Virus record (IMG/VR): IMGVR_UViG_3300005327_000274
Coordinates: 1 to 41,869 of that record
Strand: one strand, 5' to 3'
From: a virus
DNA length: 41,869 nt
The position numbers and the translations under genes were made by a program. Below the pieces are notes generated by a model. It was not told the DNA's origin, searched no databases, and was given only the letters and a program-made list of their open reading frames with translations. Shown in pieces: positions 2,380-40,270 of the stretch. Within the stretch, counting starts at the first letter, position 1. Every line of letters starts with the position of its first letter.

Positions 2380-2483
2380 ACTGCACTCATAAATTAGCAA
2401 TCGCAATGCGTAACGGTGTGCTTGTTGTGTACTGCAAGCGTTGCGGCTCACCTGAAGCAGAGATCAAGGGAGATTTGAAATGA
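2376..2483 (+). CDS. 35-residue zinc-ribbon-like peptide
   Basis: Begins in the ATGA overlap with the membrane peptide and ends in an ATGA overlap with the ERF gene. The sequence MNCTHKLAIAMRNG...VVYCKRCGSPEAE has C3, H5, C21 and C24, which fits a single zinc site. No named family. It is coupled upstream of the recombination genes. Confidence 0.55.
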   Translation: MNCTHKLAIAMRNGVLVVYCKRCGSPEAEIKGDLK

Positions 2484-3235
2484 GCAAACTTTTAGATGGT
2501 GCACTGGCAACAGTAAATAGGCCGGAGATGGAGCCTGTTGAGGCAGTAACTCCTATGGGCATCCTGCAAATGGCAATCTCGCAGGGTGCGGACATCGACA
2601 AACTGACGAAACTTATGGAGTTGAAGGAGCGGTGGGATGTAACAGAAGCCCGCAAAGCTTATGTGCAGGCTATGGCCGACTTCAAAAACGAGCCTATCGT
2701 CATCGCTAAAGACAAGAAGAACACTCAATACGGATCGATGTATACCTCAATCGGGGAATTAGTAAACACTGTTACCCCATTGCTTGGAAAGCATGGTCTG
2801 AGTGCCGAATGGTCCCTAGATCAGTCGGAAGGGATACGGGTGGGGTGCACGCTAACTCATGCATTGGGTCACTCTGGAGAAACAAAGTGGATGAAGGTAC
2901 CTACTGATGATTCCGGGAAAAAGAACCCTATCCAGCAGATAAAGTCTTCGGTGACTTATGCCCGAATCCTAACCTTCGAGATGGCTTGCGGTCTCGCCTC
3001 CAAAGAAGCGAACCTGGACGATGACGGGAACGGCGCTGGCGGTGGTAAAGAGTTGGACATTGCCGACTTTGACCGAATTATCAGTCTTATCGAAGCCGCC
3101 GATTCTCTTCCTATACTTCAGGTCACTTTCGTTGAAGGATATAAATCTGCACAAAAGATCAACGATGTCGCCGCAATGAAGCAATTCACAGCAGCCAAAG
3201 ATAAGCGAAAGGCGGAACTAAATGAGAACAATTAA
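2480..3235 (+). CDS. erf: ERF-family single-strand annealing protein
   Basis: 251 residues. Residues about 55-175 carry the ERF superfamily pattern: ARKAYVQAMADFKNEP, then KKNTQYGSMYTSIGELVNTVTPLLGKHGLSAEW, an antiparallel-strand region, and IKSSVTYARILTFEMACGLAS. ERF proteins anneal complementary single strands and serve phage recombination, circularisation and repair. The end overlaps the YqaJ-type exonuclease gene by 14 bases, the standard pairing of an annealase with a 5'-3' exonuclease. The C-terminal 60 residues are likely a separate partner-binding domain, as in other ERF proteins. Confidence 0.85.
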   Translation: MSKLLDGALATVNRPEMEPVEAVTPMGILQMAISQGADIDKLTKLMELKERWDVTEARKAYVQAMADFKNEPIVIAKDKKNTQYGSMYTSIGELVNTVTPLLGKHGLSAEWSLDQSEGIRVGCTLTHALGHSGETKWMKVPTDDSGKKNPIQQIKSSVTYARILTFEMACGLASKEANLDDDGNGAGGGKELDIADFDRIISLIEAADSLPILQVTFVEGYKSAQKINDVAAMKQFTAAKDKRKAELNENN

Positions 3236-3932
3236 ATGCACTCAGGGCTCCGCTGAATGGCTTGATATTCACCGTGGCAAGATCACTGCCTCCCGCATCG
3301 CCGATGTACTCGCCGTGCTCAAGAAAGGCGGCGAAGGGGCGGATAGAAGGAACTACCGCATTGAGCAGATCGCGGAGCGGCTTACAGGGCGAAGCGAAGA
3401 TCACTATGTCAGCCCTGAGATGGAGTGGGGCACAGAGTTCGAGCCTGTAGCCCGTTCCGCCTATGAGATCGCTACTAACTCGATAGTTGACACGGTCGGG
3501 TTTGTTCTCCACCCAACTTTCGACTATGCCGGGTCGTCTCCTGATGGCCTTGTAAACGAAGACGGCGGGCTGGAACTGAAGTGTCCGAAGACAACCACGC
3601 ATATCAAGTGGCTTGATGAGGGAATAGTTCCCGAAGAGCATCAGGCGCAGTGCTTATGGAACATGGCCTGCTGCGAACGGAACTGGTGGGACTTTATGAG
3701 CTTTGATCCCCGTATGCCTGCCGGTGCCCGCGTCTTCATCGTTCGCATGTTGAGGGATGATGAACGCATTGCCGCGATGGAGGCCGAAGTCCTCAAGTTC
3801 AACGGAGAAGTTGAAGCTGTGATTGAACGGCTGGGCGGGCGGCAGGAAGAGCCCCCTTTGCCTCCCGTTGATACCCGCAGTGAACTGGAGCAGTTGAACG
3901 AGATGCTCGACCGGATGGAGTTGATTCCTTGA
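3222..3932 (+). CDS. YqaJ-type (lambda-exonuclease-like) recombinase nuclease
   Basis: 236 residues with the YqaJ/lambda exonuclease fold signature: GSAEWLDIHRGKITASRI at 9-26, E68-W69-G70 followed by EFEPVARSAYE, the catalytic set D108 (SPDG) and E118-x-K120 (GLELKCPK), and H140-Q-A-Q before LWNMA. These enzymes degrade one strand from double-strand ends to give tails for the annealing protein encoded just upstream. The C-terminal helix pair (190-235) is extra. The next gene starts within the stop codon (TTGA). Confidence 0.88.
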   Translation: MRTIKCTQGSAEWLDIHRGKITASRIADVLAVLKKGGEGADRRNYRIEQIAERLTGRSEDHYVSPEMEWGTEFEPVARSAYEIATNSIVDTVGFVLHPTFDYAGSSPDGLVNEDGGLELKCPKTTTHIKWLDEGIVPEEHQAQCLWNMACCERNWWDFMSFDPRMPAGARVFIVRMLRDDERIAAMEAEVLKFNGEVEAVIERLGGRQEEPPLPPVDTRSELEQLNEMLDRMELIP

Positions 3933-4745: not shown

Positions 4746-5735
4746 ATGGCAAATAGCTGGTTGCGTCTGTATCACGACATGCCGAACGACCCGAAGTGGC
4801 GAACGATCGCTCGGGCGGCAAAGCAGACTATCCCTGTAGTTCTGGCAGTGTATGTGCATTTGCTCACAATCGCCTCTAGTGCCGTCGAGCGGGGCACGTT
4901 GGTGAATGTCAACAGTGAAGACCTTGCAAGCGCCCTGGACATTGATTCTGAGGCTGTGGATGCGGTTCTAGTTGCCATGCAGGGCCGGGTACTCGACGGC
5001 GAGAAGCTTTCAGGATGGGATAAGCGTCAAGTCAATCGCGAGGATAGCTCCACGGAGCGCATGAAGCGATTCCGTAATAAGAAAGTGACGCAGTGTGACG
5101 CAGTGAAACGCAATGTTACGCAGAGTGACGCATCTGTGACGCAATGTGACGGCAGAGTAGATAAGAAGAGAGAAGAAGAGATAAAGAAAGTACAAAAACC
5201 TTCTCGCGACAAGCGCGAGGCCAACCCTACGCATGCGGTTTTCAAGGGCTTAGTCCAAGACGCCTGGAAGGAATGGGGCAACCCGCTGGAAATGCCGTGG
5301 GACGGAGCGGAAGGCAAGCAGCTTGGGATGCTCATCGGAGCAAACCCTAAGCTAGGACCGGATGGCATGAGGCGGCTGTTGCAGTACCGGGCGAGGTCGA
5401 ACGGCGTGAACCTTGCAGAGCGTCCGAGCAAGTGGCTTAGGAGCCTCACCGACTACGCGAGAGGCCCACTCAACGAATTCAAGCAACCGCAGGAGACGAG
5501 CAATGGAAACAGGAATCAGAGCAAGACAGGCGGAAACCTCAATGCAGCGGCACAAGCCATCGCCTTCCTTGAACAGGAAGAAAGAAATCGTGGACTTGCT
5601 GACGATCTTGAGTTTGCGGAGACAGGCAGCGGTGAATCCGGAGACGCTGGCACTGTTTGCGTCGGATCTGGAGCATCTGGAACTGGTGGACTTGGACACG
5701 GCGCTGAAGGTGTTGTCATCGAGGCCGCGCGCTGA
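4746..5735 (+). CDS. O-like replication initiator protein
   Basis: 329 residues. The first 45 (MANSWLRLYHDMPNDPKWRTIARAA...VVLAVYVHLLTIAS) and the following SEDLASALDIDSEAVDAVLVAM form a winged-helix N-terminal domain like phage replication O/DnaD-type initiators. Residues about 113-150 are a repetitive hydrophilic linker with three VTQ[C/S]D motifs, then an Asp/Lys/Glu-rich run. Residues 160-245 are a helical C-terminal domain (MRRLLQYRARSNGVNLAERPSKWLRSLTDYARG). In lambda the origin lies in the linker part of gene O, and the same seems true here. The 3' third overlaps the next gene in another frame, and its last 40 residues are low-complexity Gly/Ala, so the true ancestral end may have been earlier. 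Confidence 0.7.
   Translation: MANSWLRLYHDMPNDPKWRTIARAAKQTIPVVLAVYVHLLTIASSAVERGTLVNVNSEDLASALDIDSEAVDAVLVAMQGRVLDGEKLSGWDKRQVNREDSSTERMKRFRNKKVTQCDAVKRNVTQSDASVTQCDGRVDKKREEEIKKVQKPSRDKREANPTHAVFKGLVQDAWKEWGNPLEMPWDGAEGKQLGMLIGANPKLGPDGMRRLLQYRARSNGVNLAERPSKWLRSLTDYARGPLNEFKQPQETSNGNRNQSKTGGNLNAAAQAIAFLEQEERNRGLADDLEFAETGSGESGDAGTVCVGSGASGTGGLGHGAEGVVIEAAR
5085..5205 (+). other. Candidate phage replication origin: phased iterons plus A-rich purine tract
   Basis: Inside the initiator gene, GTGACGCA occurs exactly at 5085, 5095, 5125 and 5136, with variants at 5104 (GTGAAACGCA), 5115 (GTTACGCA) and 5146 (GTGACGGCA). Seven units thus repeat every 9-11 bases, one turn of the helix. They are followed at 5156-5205 by an almost pure A/G tract rich in GATAAG and GAAGAG. 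Iterons next to an easily melted A-rich strand within the initiator gene is the layout of the lambda origin. The position and architecture are seen directly; the function is inferred. Confidence 0.6.
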
Positions 5736-6132
5736 AGGGGAAACAGCCTTCCCAGAGATAGCACGGATCATCGAAGAGGTTGAATCTGCTGGGCGAAGTC
5801 GGAGGACGGCAGAGGCCCGCGAACGGCGTATGGCGGATGAGGCGGCAGAACGTCGGCGCAGAGAACAGCACCCAGAGGATTACGCTTCAATCGGGCCGGC
5901 CGACCTGAAGGCCTTTTCCGAAAGACTCCCCAGCTTCAGCTTCGATATGCCGAAGGAGCGAGTCATTCCTGAGCCTGTGATGGTGACCTGCCCGCATTGC
6001 TCGGAGGAACTTCCTGTTCCCCAGAACATCCGCTTCTGGGATCCGGAAGAACTTAGAGCCCAGGCTGACAGGATCGAAGAGCTGCGAAGAATCGCCGCGG
6101 CCAACCGTGCAATCAAGCAGGAGGTTGCATGA
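5503..6132 (+). CDS. Candidate helicase-loader protein (G39P-like)
   Basis: 209 residues from ATG 5503, which has AGGAG seven bases upstream; an in-frame start at 5413 has no site. The first 95 residues (KKEIVDLLTILSLRRQAAVNPETLALFASDLEHLELVDLDTALKVLSS...AFPEIARIIEEVE) follow the pattern of the phage SPP1 G39P loader/inhibitor family: helix, 'L.LFA.DLE.LEL', paired helices, then FPxIAxI. Residues 110-140 are charged, and CPHC at 173-176 may be half of a metal site. Position right after the initiator fits an O/P-type pair that brings host DnaB to the origin. Its first 233 bases overlap the initiator gene. Confidence 0.45.
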   Translation: METGIRARQAETSMQRHKPSPSLNRKKEIVDLLTILSLRRQAAVNPETLALFASDLEHLELVDLDTALKVLSSRPRAEGETAFPEIARIIEEVESAGRSRRTAEARERRMADEAAERRRREQHPEDYASIGPADLKAFSERLPSFSFDMPKERVIPEPVMVTCPHCSEELPVPQNIRFWDPEELRAQADRIEELRRIAAANRAIKQEVA

Positions 6133-6506
6133 AAGGCCGCACGAATCCACGTCAATTGCTCCGCATCAAGTTCGGCATCTGCCCAGACTGCGGAGGAGAC
6201 GAGTCGGCTCCTGGTGGCTTACGTTGCGCCAAGTGCCGGGACGAGCAGAATGCACGCCACCGAAAGGTCTATGCAATGCAACGGGCGAATGGAAAACCAC
6301 GAAGGACGCCTGAGAAATACAAAGAGCTTGCCGAAGAGGCGCGGGCCAAGAGAAATGATCGGACGAGCCGAGGTCAGTGTATCCAATGTCCTAATCCGGT
6401 AACTCGATACAGGAGATGTTTGCGGTGCAGGAAAGCGGATGCAGAGTGCAAGCGGCAGTACCGGAATCGGCAGAAGCGAAAAGCGGAATTGAAGGTGGCG
6501 GCATGA
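6129..6506 (+). CDS. Double Cys-rich (zinc-binding) protein
   Basis: 125 residues, coupled by ATGA on both sides. It holds two copies of a small module: CPDCGG...RCAKCRDEQNARHRKVY near residues 18-48 and CIQCPNPVTRYRRCLRCRKADAECKRQY near 84-112. Each has CxxC, 9-12 residues, CxxC and then a basic helix ending in RxxY or RQY, consistent with a zinc ribbon that binds nucleic acid. The gene at 6925 has one more copy. The function is unknown; the neighbours are replication and RusA genes. Confidence 0.6.
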   Translation: MKGRTNPRQLLRIKFGICPDCGGDESAPGGLRCAKCRDEQNARHRKVYAMQRANGKPRRTPEKYKELAEEARAKRNDRTSRGQCIQCPNPVTRYRRCLRCRKADAECKRQYRNRQKRKAELKVAA

Positions 6507-6928
6507 AGACTCTGCAATTTTCAGTTGCGATGCGAGCGGAGCCCCAGGGATCAAGCAAGGCGTTCGTTATCCCAGGAACTAACCGCGCGATCGTGACGAG
6601 TGCGAACACGAAGATGAAGCCTTTCAGGTCGGAAGTTACACGAATGGCGATGGCGACTCTCTCAGATATGAAATGCGATGAGCCAATGTTGGGAAAGCAC
6701 ATTCCCGTATTTGTGGAAGTTATTTTCCACTTCTCTAAGCCTGACAGTATTCCAAAGAATCGCGTTCACCCGGTAGTGAAGCCGGACATCGACAAGCTCT
6801 TGCGGGCCGTCCTTGACTCACTAACAGGCGTTGCCTTTAAGGACGATGCTCAGGTAGTGCAGACGCGCACGGCGAAGCGTTACAGCCATAGAGATTACGT
6901 AGACATAACAGTTTCGGAGGTTGCATGA
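6503..6928 (+). CDS. rusA: RusA-type Holliday-junction resolvase
   Basis: 141 residues from the ATGA overlap at 6503; the frame is open from 6416 but those codons overlap the previous gene. The RusA signature is complete: KPDIDKLLRAVLDSLTG with D95, D97 and D105, and FKDDAQV with D114 and D115. The enzyme is a homodimer that cuts four-way junctions with metal bound by the Asp residues. In lambdoid phages it resolves recombination or packaging branches. The N-terminal QGSSKAFVIPGTNRAIVTS stretch is also seen in family members. Confidence 0.9.
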   Translation: MKTLQFSVAMRAEPQGSSKAFVIPGTNRAIVTSANTKMKPFRSEVTRMAMATLSDMKCDEPMLGKHIPVFVEVIFHFSKPDSIPKNRVHPVVKPDIDKLLRAVLDSLTGVAFKDDAQVVQTRTAKRYSHRDYVDITVSEVA

Positions 6929-40227: not shown

Positions 40228-40270
40228 TTTCTCAGAACGCTCAATAGGGGGCATGTTATTGATTATGCAC

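Follow-up and report, generated by a model that had tools for sequence, protein, structure and literature searches.

Lambda O is a winged-helix initiator, and the lambda iterons are about 19 bp long, with an internal dyad. The origins of lambda and of the Stx phages are composed of iterons within gene O together with an AT-rich tract on one side (PMC7466680). In SPP1, the direct repeats bound by gp38 lie within gene 38 and adjoin an AT-rich DUE (PMC6316719). In the geminiviruses, short iterons and the cognate Rep proteins are reported to differ together between related viruses (PMC12548392).

An origin inside an initiator gene is of an already known kind. The window analyzed here is a whole stretch of DNA of 41,869 bases, an IMG/VR virus record. 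Based on sequence comparisons, its array at 5085-5153 and the adjoining tract at 5154-5199 are considered to form a replication origin that lies in the initiator gene itself, within the linker region, with a probability of roughly 0.87. The features of the locus are as follows.

4746-5735, + strand: replication initiator gene, 329 aa (PHROG 3729 match)
4791-5027, + strand: winged-helix DNA-binding domain, residues 16-94 (AlphaFold2)
4872-4916, + strand: N-domain loop, position of the second array in most relatives, degenerate or lost here
5046-5084, + strand: basic helix segment S101-K113, SSTERMKRFRNKK, candidate iteron-reading helix (residue-triplet correspondence, predicted helix)
5085, 5095, 5125, and 5136, + strand: unit GTGACGCA, four copies (direct reading)
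5105, + strand: unit GAAACGCA (direct reading)
5115, + strand: unit GTTACGCA (direct reading)
5146, + strand: unit GTGACGGC (direct reading)
5154-5199, + strand: A/G-rich tract, proposed unwinding element, directly 3' of the last unit
5226-5462, + strand: C-terminal domain, residues 161-239, proposed helicase-recruiting module

Phased 8-bp units and a purine-rich tract inside the initiator gene

The preliminary description of the window had placed seven helically phased 8-bp iterons inside the initiator gene, and this was confirmed both by direct reading and with Tandem Repeats Finder (period 10, 6.6 copies, 5085-5151). The seven GTGACGCA-type units are spaced by 10, 10, 10, 10, 11, and 10 bp and fall in codon phases 0, 1, 2, 0, 1, 0, and 1, so that all three reading frames are used; two of them, GAAACGCA and GTTACGCA, depart from GTG. 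The lag-10 self-match of the array was 38, compared with a mean of 24.0 (SD, 3.3) for synonymous recodings of its own peptide (p ~1.5e-4). Pairs of units with at most three mismatches numbered five in the window, all at the array, against 0.52 expected in shuffles. The suggestion that the DNA rather than the protein is under selection at this position thus holds under synonymous recoding.

The sole stronger array found in the window by Tandem Repeats Finder was a 12-bp coding repeat at 2064-2223. It lies within the ORF at 1637-2305, where 13 tandem copies encode an Ala-rich low-complexity stretch (AARDAAGAAAGAAARAAAW...).

No other 46-mer of the window is as rich in purines as the tract at 5154-5199 (0.87), and the A content of this tract, 25, exceeds the 18.3 obtained under synonymous recoding (p ~5e-4). 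It had been described as a 50-base A/G tract; the purine-rich tract is real, but it spans about 45 bases and, while mostly A/G, contains a few T and C.

Two other types of origin were considered and rejected. A DnaA-box origin was discarded on finding a single chance-level match in the window, far off at 40263, and an iteron-plasmid Rep of the RepA/RepE type, with 17-22-bp iterons outside the gene and dnaA boxes, does not fit units of 8 bp inside the gene. Cumulative GC skew rose steadily, with no minimum at 5.1 kb; since nearly every gene here is on the + strand, the skew is uninformative as an origin test.

The initiator and its neighborhood

The initiator matched PHROG 3729, "replication initiation protein," over residues 1-144 (E=5.7e-39) and PHROG 10469, "DnaD-like helicase loader" (E=4.7e-7), and its homologues are annotated as replication protein O or primosomal protein I. 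No Pfam match was obtained at E<=0.1, including lambda O and PF09681, and a sequence search of solved structures likewise gave no match. The protein is organized as a winged-helix N-domain, a basic helix, the array-bearing linker, and a C-terminal domain. In the AlphaFold2 model, the N-domain was predicted with pLDDT mostly 89-98 (residues 11-90) and consists of helices at 16-25, 29-45, 57-64, and 68-78 plus a strand wing, followed by a long basic helix at 101-127; the C-terminal part was poorly predicted. The best matches in a fold search of the PDB were MarR/ArsR-like and nonsignificant. Within the basic helix, residues 105-110 read RMKRFR, with M106 (codon 5061-5063) at the position here called x and F109 as the aromatic residue. 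The C-terminal domain has no Pfam family, and a scan for it found two relatives only; in L328 and L329 it is fused to unrelated N-domains.

The neighboring genes encode an Erf annealing protein (2480-3235), a YqaJ/RecE-type exonuclease (3222-3932), and a RusA resolvase (6416-6928). For the two genes that follow the initiator, family matches were sub-threshold only, such as a zinc ribbon. The next ORF (5413-6132) begins, in a different frame, before the initiator gene has ended; if read from the GTG start at 5632, its product of about 166 aa would belong to no PHROG family and match a zinc ribbon only weakly, and it could be a divergent helicase-loading partner. The earlier statement that no phage helicase is seen was borne out. 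When stop-to-stop frames of 100 codons or more were inspected for Walker A motifs, the large terminase and one antisense frame were the only ones to contain them. Because the phage has no recognizable helicase or ATPase loader, use of the host DnaB is likely.

The array is conserved as DNA among relatives

Relatives were drawn from genomes in IMG/VR and GTDB; 76 representatives were retained, of which 73 were analyzable. Their linker arrays had a mean of 4.27 phased units (best 5-mer chain), compared with 2.33 after synonymous recoding, and 98.6% of the 73 exceeded their own null mean. The units shift through all three frames with spacings of 10, 10, and 11 bp, and the unit varies by lineage (GTCACG, CGAACGCA, GTGACGCA, GTAACGCA, GTGACTCA), as does the encoded peptide. 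Comparison of the linkers, which had been proposed as a check on the origin reading, therefore gave the pattern of phased repeats retained while both the DNA and the peptide vary, with few exceptions. No clear array was detected in L087/L092 and the distant L334, in which the helix is present, or in L114. Taken together, the comparison shows that a phased array is kept beyond the needs of the protein across some 70 diverse relatives, and it strongly supports the origin reading.

L114 (Pantoea sp. BAV 3049) carries an iteron-free homologue of the initiator in which the linker is replaced by a different sequence, which may be an inserted nuclease-like domain. In L635 and L636, the initiator reading frame is interrupted close to the iteron array, and shorter ORFs are annotated in its place.

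Most relatives have a second array, located in the loop of the DNA-binding domain, with 3.53 units compared with 1.23 after recoding and values above the null in 93% of the 73. This loop array is absent from the window, L001, and L042. The loop and linker arrays lie 100-200 bp apart and have a common unit: 6-mer sharing between them was 0.234 within a phage and 0.120 between phages, and the longest common string was 13.0 and 8.1, respectively (permutation p<1e-4); a control segment gave a far smaller difference, 0.078 within and 0.063 between phages. In L015, the loop array (~3121-3168) contains two old-type GAACGC units adjoining two new-type GTGACGC units, as if it had been caught in the middle of a switch of iteron class.

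The last unit is followed in the relatives by an A-rich GATAAA/GATACA tract, typically AGATAAAGATACAGAT, always on the same side of the array. GC3 in this tract was 0.14, compared with 0.58 upstream in the gene (Wilcoxon p=4e-13). Inspection by eye gave no support for interpreting the GATAAA/GATACA tract as a DnaA-trio.

The C-terminal domain and the next gene vary among the relatives, the combinations including a DnaT-like C-domain with a DnaC-like gene (as in L331), a DnaB helicase, and a primase-helicase (downstream in L330). In several relatives, helicase or loader genes adjoin the initiator.

One residue of the basic helix tracks the iteron triplet

The array is preceded by a basic helix of the form R-x-x-x-[aromatic/Q]-R, in which residue x was found to track the triplet before the ACG of the iteron: K with GTC, A or S with CGA, V with GTA, and T or M with GTG. 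This correspondence was derived from proteobacterial phages by comparing iteron classes with N-domain columns, followed by extraction of the helix by pattern. In the iteron-blind proteobacterial data, GTC was accompanied by K in 63/64 phages, CGA by A/S in 22/23, GTA by V in 4/4, and GTG by T/M in 3/3 (permutation p<2e-4 for the association).

Two database scans were conducted in which the sequences were picked by iteron alone. Pairs of GTGACGCA, a scan that contributed to the formulation of the rule, were associated with T or M in 11/12 cases, and the twelfth (L346) is not itself recognized as an initiator. For pairs of GTAACGCA, x=V was predicted beforehand; of the 67 initiators retrieved, 53 had V and 10 had Q, while A and I were found in two each, and those of the same family had V in 12/12. 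Many initiators in this second scan were Gram-positive replisome organizers with the Pfam domain PF09681. A scan for GTTACG, tried as a further test of the code, returned mostly noncoding, 10-bp phased arrays from other phages and is silent on the code because the matches lie outside the initiator family. These GTTACG rows (L394-L473; at least 120 stretches) have exactly 10-bp spacing, are common in viral contigs outside the initiator family, and are often noncoding.

Sixteen Gram-positive phages were chosen through protein similarity, with the iterons ignored. K (with Q in the aromatic position) was accompanied by GTC in 5/5 and V by GTA in the 3/3 that were callable, and Q with an aromatic residue was found with GTA in three phages and with GTT in one. 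Listeria phage A500 (V) has a mix of GTA and GTT and was left uncalled. Exceptions included, besides the pairing of Q with GTA, an Oenococcus phage with M (with S) and a GTT/GTG mix and the gp38 gene of an SPP1-like Bacillus phage, which has a V helix and lacks the predicted GTAACG array.

These comparisons show that the sequence of the array changes together with one residue of the basic helix. We consider it reasonably probable that a short basic helix of divergent initiators reads one-turn iterons through a residue-to-triplet rule. As proposed, the helix motif would be R-x-x-x-[W/Y/F/H/Q]-R, and the triplet before ACG would be GTC for K with Q, CGA for A or S with W, GTA for V and also for Q, and GTG for T or M. 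Direct coding coupling, in which the x codon would itself be part of an iteron, is inapplicable in the window, where the codon lies upstream of the first unit.

Model of the proposed origin and alternative explanations

In the proposed mechanism, initiator monomers would occupy one face of the DNA, each taking up one helical turn, with base contacts supplied by the winged helix and by the basic helix R105-x106-x-x-F109-R110. Residue x, M in the window, would contribute to the choice of the triplet that precedes ACG. Strain from the bound row may then open the adjacent A/G tract, after which the C-terminal domain would bring in the host DnaB helicase.

An operator for autoregulation, bound by the initiator or another regulator, would likewise place sites inside the initiator's own gene, where protein-bound arrays can block transcription, and the two arrays per gene in many lineages would suit such a role. 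However, no convincing promoter or terminator was found near the array, the A-rich tract with its AT-rich codons keeps to one side of the array as expected of an unwinding element, and origin function is proven for the counterparts in lambda and SPP1. Autoregulation is also compatible with origin function, and an operator in place of an origin appears improbable. Replication slippage in a disordered linker, yielding repeats devoid of DNA function, is considerably less probable still. Slippage does happen in the A-rich tract, because the copy number of its hexamer differs between near-identical contigs (L002 versus L003 and L004), and the 12-bp coding repeat elsewhere in the window is of the slippage type. 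The 10-bp units, however, change frame with each copy and retain their 10/11 spacing despite different unit sequences, the loop and linker arrays share their unit across the distance that separates them, and the unit sequence tracks residue x. Among plasmids, the parC site can be made up of successive ~11-bp repeats on which protein assembles as a helical array, and the layout of parC in plasmid R1 is similar to that of the two 10-11-bp repeat clusters of many relatives. A partition (centromere-like) site is nevertheless hardly credible for an array that always lies within a replication initiator, here near Erf, YqaJ exonuclease, and RusA, and that is followed by an unwinding-type tract, with helicase or loader genes next to it in several relatives.

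A separate question, which concerns the code and not the origin, is whether x and the triplet are coupled merely through inheritance as a block. The helix and the array are a few to ~30 codons apart and, being neighbors in the gene, can be inherited together, and well-supported independent switches are few. On a tree of the N-domain columns, with the loop and helix left out, the GTG state needs eight changes. In well-supported independent pairs, x shifted in the same way in 4/4 for GTG, 2.7/3 for GTA, and 2.8/3 for CGA-like triplets, and never in the opposite way; the number of such pairs per triplet was 4, 3, 3, and 1, and no single tree test reached p<0.05. The case therefore rests on repetition across families, the pairs being too few for a sign test to reach significance. 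Identical combinations of residue and triplet are seen in the Gram-positive N-domains, which are only remotely related to that of the window (25% identity), and in a third N-domain type (L537) that has no Pfam match and for which no match was found in the phage collection. The remaining helix residues differ across the N-domain types (RVKAFR, RVAKHR, RVRKYR). Over the tree columns, L001 matches the window at 92% identity, yet x is M in the window and V in L001, and the iteron type differs. Such long co-maintenance of helix and array indicates functional coupling, and block inheritance as the whole explanation is judged unlikely.

Comparison with known systems

A search of open-access literature gave no description of the one-turn 8-bp iterons, of the paired loop and linker arrays, or, above all, of the residue-triplet rule; an earlier description may exist elsewhere. 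If the rule is true, the origin specificity of very many Gram-negative and Gram-positive phages could be predicted from the protein sequence, with switches of specificity arising through paired changes in helix and array. The origin could then be located from sequence alone for a large class of temperate phages, and initiator-origin pairing predicted. Since one DNA stretch must satisfy both the protein and the array, the locus would be a compact model of a DNA-binding protein and in-gene sites that change together. It would also become possible to test origin specificity in mosaic phages, a long-standing question, directly by swapping one residue against one triplet.

The likeness to the lambda origin put forward in the preliminary description, with shorter and closer iterons, is supported. 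The matched second array of the relatives, the link between residue and triplet, and the remote kinship with Gram-positive replisome organizers were absent from that description. Repeats in the middle of the gene and an A/T-rich tract on one side are common to both, whereas the window has 8-bp units, one per turn and in all three frames, instead of ~19-bp dyad iterons. The window also differs in having no Pfam match to lambda O and no recognized P-type loader, and its relatives mostly bear a second array in the coding sequence of the DNA-binding domain. The geminiviruses offer an analogy only: their short iterons vary with the cognate initiator, as here, but these are single-stranded DNA viruses with a rolling-circle Rep that has no homology to the present initiator and with iterons outside the coding region.

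The oriL/gp38 system of SPP1 is similar in placing direct repeats and an AT-rich DUE in the initiator's own gene, an arrangement also seen in most of the iteron-blind Gram-positive examples. An SPP1-like gp38 carries the PF09681 domain, a probable remote relative of the window N-domain (hhalign probability 94.6%, E=6.7e-8, 25% identity, in one comparison with a domain of this type), and the layout of helix, array, and tract is found also in staphylococcal, streptococcal, and listerial members of PF09681. The window has no recognized loader or helicase of the gp39/gp40 type. The proteobacterial prophage initiators of PHROG 3729, with the phages Tritos, Evi, pAEv1818, and phi1, have the N-domain of the window (43-62% identity) and the same layout. 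These phages mostly combine GTCAC iterons with a second array in the loop, whereas the window carries the linker array without one.
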